A stretch of 55,173 nucleotides of DNA. Origin: a virus. The stretch's first letter is position 1; each line of letters begins with the position of its first letter. The translations under genes were made by a program, and so were the position numbers. The notes under the pieces are model-generated. The model made no database searches and had not been told where the DNA came from. It was given only the letters and a program-made list of their open reading frames with translations. Positions 15,823 to 17,385 of the stretch are shown here, one piece after another. Location: IMG/VR virus record IMGVR_UViG_3300043607_000025, positions 1 through 55,173 of that record. One strand, given 5' to 3'.

Positions 15823-16650
15823 ATGAGGAAACTACTTGCAGCAACCACCTTGGTACTCGCCATGGCGGCACCGGCCCACGCCCACCTGATCCTGTTCGAC
15901 AACCCGAACCAACCGAACTCCGGGGACGCTGTGTCCCAGTCGTTCGTCGACTTCGGGGCACAGGGCTTCGGCAACAGCCCGGCGGCACTGACCCTGCAAT
16001 CCAATGGCTCCCAGATCGGCAGCGTCACGCCGAGTATCACGGGAACCGCTGTCGTTCACGATCAGGCCATCGCCGGGAGCAACAAAGCCGCAACCCCAAC
16101 GCTGACCGACTTGGGTTGGCTCGGCGGCAGCGTCGTTGCCATCGGCTACAACAGCAATCAAAGCAACCAGACCGGCATTACGCTCCAGCAACTGGCGCTG
16201 ACGGTCTACAGTGGAACGACGGCGCTCGCCTCGTTCAGCCTCGCCACAAACCTGATCCCGCTGCAGTTTACGGCAGCCGACCTGCAACTGCAGGAAGGCC
16301 ACGGCAACGCGATCTTCGGGTTCGTGCTGGACACGCAAGAGCGCGCTCAGTTCAACGCACTCGTCGCCCTGACCGGCAGCGGTGATTTCCGGGTTGGCCT
16401 GGCCGCCAACATGGGATGCTTCGGGGCTGCGGGCAACGACCCGAATTGCCAAGTCTCGAACGACGGCGCCGACACGTTCTATCTCATCGCCCGCGGCAAC
16501 CCGATCATCAACCCGACCTGCCCGGATTGCGTCATCAACCCGGTCGACGTCGTTCCCGGCCCGGTGGCCGGTGCCGGTCTGCCGGGGCTGTTCGCCGCCT
16601 GCGTCGGGCTGTGGGGCTGGCGGCGCCGCCGTCACGCGCCTGTGGCGTAG
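15823..16650 (+). CDS. Secreted protein with PEP-CTERM-like sorting tail (275 aa)
   Basis: 275 residues from ATG at 15823, with a ribosome site (AGAAGGA). [20 protein letters not shown] is a clear signal peptide. The body is Asn/Gly/Thr-rich beta sequence ([19 protein letters not shown]) with a pair of cysteines near the end. The C-terminus has [13 protein letters not shown], a hydrophobic segment and RRRR, the tripartite layout of PEP-CTERM-type signals recognised by exosortases. The next gene has the same tail. It is not like a virion protein; a surface or envelope role during infection or lysogeny is inferred. Confidence 0.8.
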   Translation: [275 protein letters not shown]

Positions 16651-16689
16651 TCACCTTGTCTCAGTCTCACCTCATTGGAGTTTACCTTC

Positions 16690-17385
16690 ATGAAGAAGCT
16701 GCTGCTGTTCACGACCGCTGCACTGATCGCCACGCCGGTGGCGGCCACCGCAGACATGGCGTTGCGCCTGCAAGACGGCGCGCTCGTCCAGGATTTCTTT
16801 TCTGCGCCTGGAGCGAGTTCGTTCACCGGGCCGACCGACTTCGCGTTTGGAGATTTCACGATCTCCAACATCACGGGATCGACGACGCCGTCGACCACTG
16901 CCCCGGTGCTGTTGTCGACGAACACCTTGGACCTTCAGTCCACGGACATCGGATCGCACGTCCTCGACATCTTCGTCACCGGCAACAATTTGTTGTTCCC
17001 GACGGGCATCAACAACACCTTCTCGGGCTTCACCAGCGTTTCGTTGTCGGACGGCTGGACCTCGTCGTTGTCTACTTTGCTCGACACCGGCAATGGCAAC
17101 TTCACCGGGTCGTTGGTTGACAGCATCGTGTTCAACGGCAACGGCATCTCGACGTTCTCCAACAACCAGACCGCCCTGGCGGACTTCGGTACTGGGCCGT
17201 ACTCGATCACGGCGCACTACCAGATCACGACCAACGGCACCGGACAGGCCAACAGCGGCATCCAGTTCGCCGCCGCGGCAGTCCCCGGCCCGGTCGTTGG
17301 CGCCGGCCTGCCCGGCCTGATCGCCGCGGGTCTGTTCATGGTCGGCCTCGCCAAACGTCGCCGCAACCGATCAGCTCAGGCCTGA
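16690..17385 (+). CDS. Second secreted protein with PEP-CTERM-like sorting tail (231 aa)
   Basis: 231 residues from ATG at 16690 with TTGGAG upstream. It has a signal peptide ([19 protein letters not shown]), a Ser/Thr/Asn-rich beta body ([16 protein letters not shown]) and the tail [13 protein letters not shown], hydrophobic stretch, KRRRN. Body sequences of this and the previous protein differ, so they share the tail rather than being simple duplicates. Both sit in a rightward early/middle operon, not in the virion gene block. Confidence 0.8.
   Translation: [231 protein letters not shown]

Follow-up and report, generated by a model that had tools for sequence, protein, structure and literature searches.

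Two tandem genes of an uncultivated temperate phage encode secreted-type proteins with unrelated bodies and a common C-terminal tail, and we consider it likely that both proteins are phage-encoded clients of a host exosortase, placed by it on the cell surface. The phage is represented by IMG/VR virus record IMGVR_UViG_3300043607_000025, of which positions 1 to 55,173 were analysed (55,173 nucleotides, hereafter the window). Three lines of evidence strongly support a function of the tails as exosortase-type sorting signals: their co-occurrence with an enzyme in bacterial genomes, gene adjacency, and a curated PEPxxWA-CTERM signal within the same phage body families.

Two tandem phage genes with a common tail

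A preliminary description of the window had read by eye two secreted proteins with unlike bodies that share a signal peptide and a tail, and both open reading frames were recovered (Table 1). The two tails have the form VPGPVxGAGLPGL, followed by a hydrophobic helix and an Arg cluster, and the two bodies belong to separate, unrelated sequence clusters. Neither protein has a family in PHROGs, Pfam or NCBIfam, and searches of cultured phages (INPHARED) with the DNA of the window and with four proteins or bodies gave no match.

Table 1. Features of the window and of the host enzyme (window positions, unless a locus is named)
Feature	Position	Strand	Remarks
RecE-like exonuclease	11017-11949	+	early-type gene run
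RecT	12851-13909	+	early-type gene run with the tail genes
121-aa exported-type protein	15431..15796	+	upstream; immediately precedes a tail gene in five loci (cluster 23)
Gene 1	15823..16650	+	275 aa, secreted-type, VPGP-type sorting tail, all-beta body predicted; body family A2
Gene 1 Sec-type signal peptide	15823..15882	+	by reading the sequence; AxA site
Gene 1 tail	16552..16647	+	13-residue motif, hydrophobic helix, RRRR
Gene 2	16690..17385	+	231 aa, secreted-type, VPGP-type tail; predicted beta-sandwich body resembling glycan-binding/MAM modules
Gene 2 Sec-type signal peptide	16690..16752	+	by reading the sequence
Gene 2 tail	17281..17382	+	13-residue motif, hydrophobic helix, KRRR
Exchangeable DNA module	17275..17465	+	first tail codons through downstream hairpin; 191 bp, 95% identical to phage L003 413-603
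Perfect 11-bp inverted repeat	17423..17458	+	GCGCGTGCGGG...CCCGCACGCGC; just 3' of gene 2; also in L001-L003
Small membrane protein	17990..18256	+	assigned to cluster 1 by eye
Integrase	18871..19980	+	downstream of the tail genes, same strand
Divergent exosortase	L214:814-1797	+	about 330 aa; homologues L213, L215, L216

The window comprises the complete genome of a temperate siphovirus, circularly permuted and with a 191-nt terminal repeat (99% identity), and it carries genes for terminase, portal, capsid protease, tape measure, endolysin, integrase, RecE/RecT and a repressor-like HTH protein. The host is probably a member of the Bradyrhizobium group, to judge by the tails and by terminase relatives at 49-50%. 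The tail genes sit in a rightward run from RecE/RecT to the integrase, and the structural genes lie on the opposite strand. Of the early/middle operon that had been claimed for them, the position within this run stands, whereas the timing can only be presumed; a scan for sigma-70 promoters between 14300 and 19000 found none and is uninformative for this organism. In all 25 loci with a small membrane protein of cluster 1, its gene follows a tail gene in the same orientation, and these proteins are possible functional partners of the tail proteins. Two repeat arrays were also observed elsewhere in the window, one of a 12-nt unit in 26 registered copies (9120-9575, inside the gene at 8917-9624), the other an intergenic, degenerate 5/10-nt GTC-rich array (53017-53314).

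When the exact degenerate pattern VPGPxxGAG[LF]PG was searched over IMG/VR DNA, VPGP tails were found in at least 119 viral stretches, nearly all of them in frame and C-terminal on short exported-type proteins, and a sharing of this extent is not due to chance. Such a trait had been called unexpected on a phage, which understates the matter, for it is widespread in uncultivated phages; adjacent pairs of tail genes occur in 15 of 111 loci. The same pattern in 257 billion bases from 84,980 species gave 59 stretches, about 13 of which are real tails by reading, and these cellular tails belong to Bradyrhizobium MAGs, two alphaproteobacterial MAGs and one Acidobacteriaceae MAG contig. The tail would be frequent among phages and scarce among cells, a contrast that is a lead and not a rate because the two collections are sampled differently. 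A single viral contig showed APGP tails, compared with the 119 or more stretches that carry VPGP.

V-P-G-P, G-A-G and P-G do not vary among the 104 distinct viral tails compared, which follows partly from the construction of the search pattern. Features outside that pattern recur in the same tails, namely a hydrophobic stretch and a mean of 4.7 Arg/Lys with 0.08 Asp/Glu. The tails had been described as PEP-CTERM-like, and the tripartite layout (motif, hydrophobic helix, basic cluster) is indeed present in both, whereas membership of the TIGR02595 family is not borne out by model score. Isolated tail 1 reached 13.6 bits with a cut-off of 16, and neither tail 2 nor the full-length proteins matched TIGR02595 or NF035944, the motif being PGP and not Pro-Glu-Pro. 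Since the curated models fail, we rejected classical PEP-CTERM membership for the VPGP tail. The NCBIfam GlyGly-CTERM models matched neither tail.

A divergent exosortase in tail-bearing genomes

Host exosortase genes, which the preliminary description had suggested as a check, were found through the model TIGR04178. A classical EpsH-type enzyme as the partner was rejected, as PF09721 is silent in all tail-bearing genomes of the genus sample described below (24 other genomes match) and only TIGR04178 revealed the divergent enzyme. This model is above its cut-off in genomes G001, G003, G062 and G129, and in three of them the match lies about 50 kb or less from tail genes. The enzyme matches this model weakly, with 24.1, 24.7 and 23.1 bits against a cut-off of 23 and the homologue L216 just below at 22.7, and none of the NCBIfam exosortase subfamilies covers it. 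Residues C235, R281 and H296 are invariant in nine sequences, and a Cys/Arg/His set has been described for EpsH (PMC1569441). In L213 a gene read as encoding a Wzc-like chain-length protein adjoins the enzyme gene. In the Bradyrhizobium-group genomes the enzyme gene often has as its neighbour a gene for a small APGP-tailed protein (about 85 aa); APGP tail and divergent exosortase may form a new sorting pair that does not depend on phages. No phage-borne exosortase was found by a viral scan, which sees close relatives only, or by a profile search of 2.07 Mb of viral loci.

For the association of tail and enzyme we examined the genus to which the Bradyrhizobium MAG G001 belongs (195 genomes), with the enzyme scored as present at E below 1e-60. 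By this measure 21 genomes carry the divergent exosortase. The tail class [AV]PGPxxGAGLP was matched in 20 genomes and is real in 19; the match in G188 was discarded as an off-frame chance hit that recurs with mismatches in other genomes. All 19 tail genomes are among the 21 enzyme genomes and none of the 174 enzyme-less genomes has the tail (Fisher p = 2e-24, a value that overstates independence because related genomes share history). Tails of the VPGP...PG form are confined to the four genomes of the sample in which the enzyme has an identity of 56% or more with the query (p = 1.7e-8, from these four hosts), and APGP...P tails pair with enzymes that are 45-51% identical to it, i.e., with the other clade.

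Gene order points in the same direction. In six genomes (G021, G058, G088, G141, G166, G184) no more than 1.5 kb separates the enzyme from a tail gene, and a variant tail stands beside it in six pattern-negative ones (G135, G222, G207, G219, G257, G281), examples of variant tails near the enzyme being GAPGPIAGTGLP, GAPAPIAAAGLP and GAPLPIMGAGLP; G300 has no tail near its enzyme, and G063 was left out of this examination. In a second sample of 341 genomes of the family the association recurs (p = 7e-7, pattern tails only). A tail appears only with the cognate enzyme in the genus, and the exceptions are met at the family level, comprising a remnant in G279 and two fragmented alphaproteobacterial MAGs with VPGP tails, G002 and G004 (loci L125, L127, L141, L162 and L174), in which no enzyme was detected and which may reflect either assembly gaps or another enzyme.

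Tail switching and DNA exchange among phages

Because selection on the tail was to be avoided, viral contigs were also searched with the bodies alone, their tails removed. The gene 1 family includes 15 distinct relatives, 12 with VPGP tails; the tail of L329 is apparently frame-shifted, one relative is cut by the contig end, and L320 bears a PEPxxWA-CTERM tail. Relatives from this and from another phage family, L320, L370 and L390, were found by their bodies only and exceed the NF035944 cut-off of 35 bits (42.2 bits for L320, 40.9 and 36.9 bits for the other two). The commonest phage body family has 62 distinct proteins, and by reading all of them end in a sorting-type tail: about 20 are VPGP, 20 PEPxxWA-type, 16 VPxP-GAG (L336, L340 and L341, which read VPLPAVGTGLPA, were counted here), 5 VPLPA-like and one of another kind. 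Bodies that are 82% identical bear different tail types (VPGP versus PEPxxWA), and in L349 and L350 a VPGPVAG runs directly into VPEPGTWAMM, so that two tails seem to be joined there, possibly as a fossil of tail replacement. We read the swapping of VPGP, PEPxxWA and VPLPA-like tails on bodies that are kept as a probable matching of the exosortase of each host.

The records with alternative tails are those of phages, since G536 and G544 contain terminase, portal and capsid homologues, G542 a terminase and G543 a head-tail adaptor. Terminase of the phrog_9 model was detected in 12 of 50 records, a tally lowered in part by terminase families that escape this model (that of G542 matches phrog_2) and by records that may be fragments.

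Exchange is also visible at the level of DNA. The block shared by the window and L003 covers only the tail and the hairpin while the upstream bodies are unrelated, and therefore tails move as DNA modules. A second phage pair with unrelated bodies, L104 and L017, shows 89% DNA identity against an average of 54% for such pairs. The hairpin, a strong one, is conserved in L003, in which a 158-bp block downstream of it is displaced; the element may serve in recombination or termination.

A proposed route to the cell surface

The following route is proposed. The two proteins would be made in the host from the early-type RecE/RecT/integrase run, and Sec would export them through the signal peptides read in their sequences. 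The tail, from the VPGPxxGAGLPGL motif through the helix to the Arg cluster, would then hold each protein in the inner membrane and be recognised by the divergent exosortase of the Bradyrhizobium group, a step that is suggested because of the genome-wide co-occurrence, the gene adjacency and the conserved Cys/Arg/His of the enzyme. By analogy with the PEP-CTERM, PGF-CTERM and GlyGly-CTERM systems, the enzyme would cut off the tail and hand the body to the cell surface or to the exopolysaccharide layer. We strongly infer sorting by the host exosortase.

The same tail physics would suit a plain C-terminal anchor, in which helix and Arg cluster do no more than fix the protein to the periplasmic face of the inner membrane and no enzyme takes part, and tail cleavage is itself inferred. 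We consider such an anchor unlikely, as it would need no fixed V-P-G-P..G-A-G..P-G motif, would not track exosortase-bearing genomes at p = 2e-24, and would not switch between known sorting-signal types on one body. Another thought is that the proteins are decoys that saturate the host exosortase, leaving host surface proteins unsorted and exopolysaccharide or receptors weakened, the body being filler. Two tandem copies in the window, the adjacent pairs at other loci and host-matched tails are compatible with competition of this kind; however, the bodies belong to conserved families that show invariant residues and a predicted fold, and several distinct families recur, and we regard decoys as quite unlikely. 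It is very improbable that these are minor structural or fibre proteins of the virion with an incidental tail: some loci are near capsid genes (cluster 7) and L005/L006 adjoin a tail-fibre-like gene, yet signal peptides would take the proteins out of the cytoplasm, where virions assemble, and in the window the structural genes are encoded on the other strand. Misbinned contigs with bacterial PEP-CTERM-like genes, or host-derived passengers, could be suspected from the host-like tails of L081, L100 and L101 or their bodies like those of AP_8 genomes, but this is hardly credible when the window is an entire phage genome and the two genes are embedded in its gene run, many records carry terminase, portal or capsid genes, and the bodies of chromosomal VPGP proteins are otherwise non-homologous to the phage ones.

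Delivery by a host exosortase has close counterparts. Exosortase systems have so far been studied as a bacterial envelope trait. With PEP-CTERM/EpsH (Haft 2006, PMC1569441) the phage proteins and the divergent enzyme share the signal peptide (as read from the sequence), short Pro motif, helix and Arg cluster on unrelated bodies, an enzyme near polysaccharide genes and its Cys/Arg/His residues, and the same bodies on other phages bear PEPxxWA-CTERM (NF035944) itself. They differ in that the window motif is VPGPxxGAGLPG and not PEP, below curated cut-offs, that the enzyme clade is outside PF09721 and the NCBIfam exosortase subfamilies, and that the clients are phage-borne. The pairs archaeosortase ArtA/PGF-CTERM, rhombosortase/GlyGly-CTERM and myxosortase/MYXO-CTERM likewise combine a tripartite tail, a dedicated membrane enzyme and clients left at the surface, although motifs, enzymes and hosts differ; the paper that reviews them does not mention phages (PMC11980579). 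No report of phage-encoded clients or of a VPGP tail was found in the literature on PEP-CTERM/exosortase with phages or Bradyrhizobium, consulted mostly outside subscription papers. The kind of system is therefore known, and its use by phages, the tail switching and the enzyme-tail pair appear to be new.

Since many related viruses carry similar proteins with swapped tails, the data suggest that phages commonly borrow host sorting machinery to coat infected cells. Somewhat less firmly than for the two proteins themselves, we think it probable that uncultivated soil phages practise modular surface display, in which phage-specific beta-sandwich bodies are recombined to tails readable by the host and the host exosortase decorates infected or lysogenic cells, VPGP tail and divergent exosortase being an undescribed enzyme-signal pair. 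If so, phages reach the cell surface through the exosortase pathway by means of host-matched, swappable tags, and phage genes that act on the envelope could be recognised in metagenomes by the tail sequence; since the type of tail would reflect the host exosortase, it would also aid host prediction. The VPGP/APGP tail with its enzyme would be a candidate sorting pair overlooked by curated models, and exosortase action on substrates becomes easier to test because the enzyme gene is often beside a likely substrate.

As for the bodies, confidence in the models is modest. The AlphaFold model of gene 1 (pLDDT 62) has a beta-rich body and a C-terminal helix at 254-271, and a fold search with it gave nothing significant. 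The gene 2 model (pLDDT 70) is also beta-rich with a C-terminal helix, and Foldseek relates it to MAM and carbohydrate-binding beta-sandwiches (best E 5.5e-4, others weaker). Its best VIA-align match is Bd1399 (Z 9.3, rmsd 4.8 over 143 residues), and a surface glycan-binding protein also aligns (Z 7.9, rmsd 3.5 over 128), Z values that are common and no proof of function. A glycan-binding surface role for the gene 2 body is a fair guess from these weak fold matches. The last step of the route, a conjecture, would be that the beta-sandwich body probably binds or masks a surface glycan or receptor, and the benefit would be superinfection exclusion or altered exopolysaccharide. Phage morons are envelope proteins of lysogenic conversion or superinfection exclusion, and the proteins resemble them as phage gene products that would act at the host surface; to our knowledge no phage moron relies on a C-terminal signal for sorting by a host exosortase. 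Among the structural genes of the window (38874-41034), methyltransferase-like and glycosyltransferase-like genes were also recognised by reading, and their products could modify virion or host glycans.
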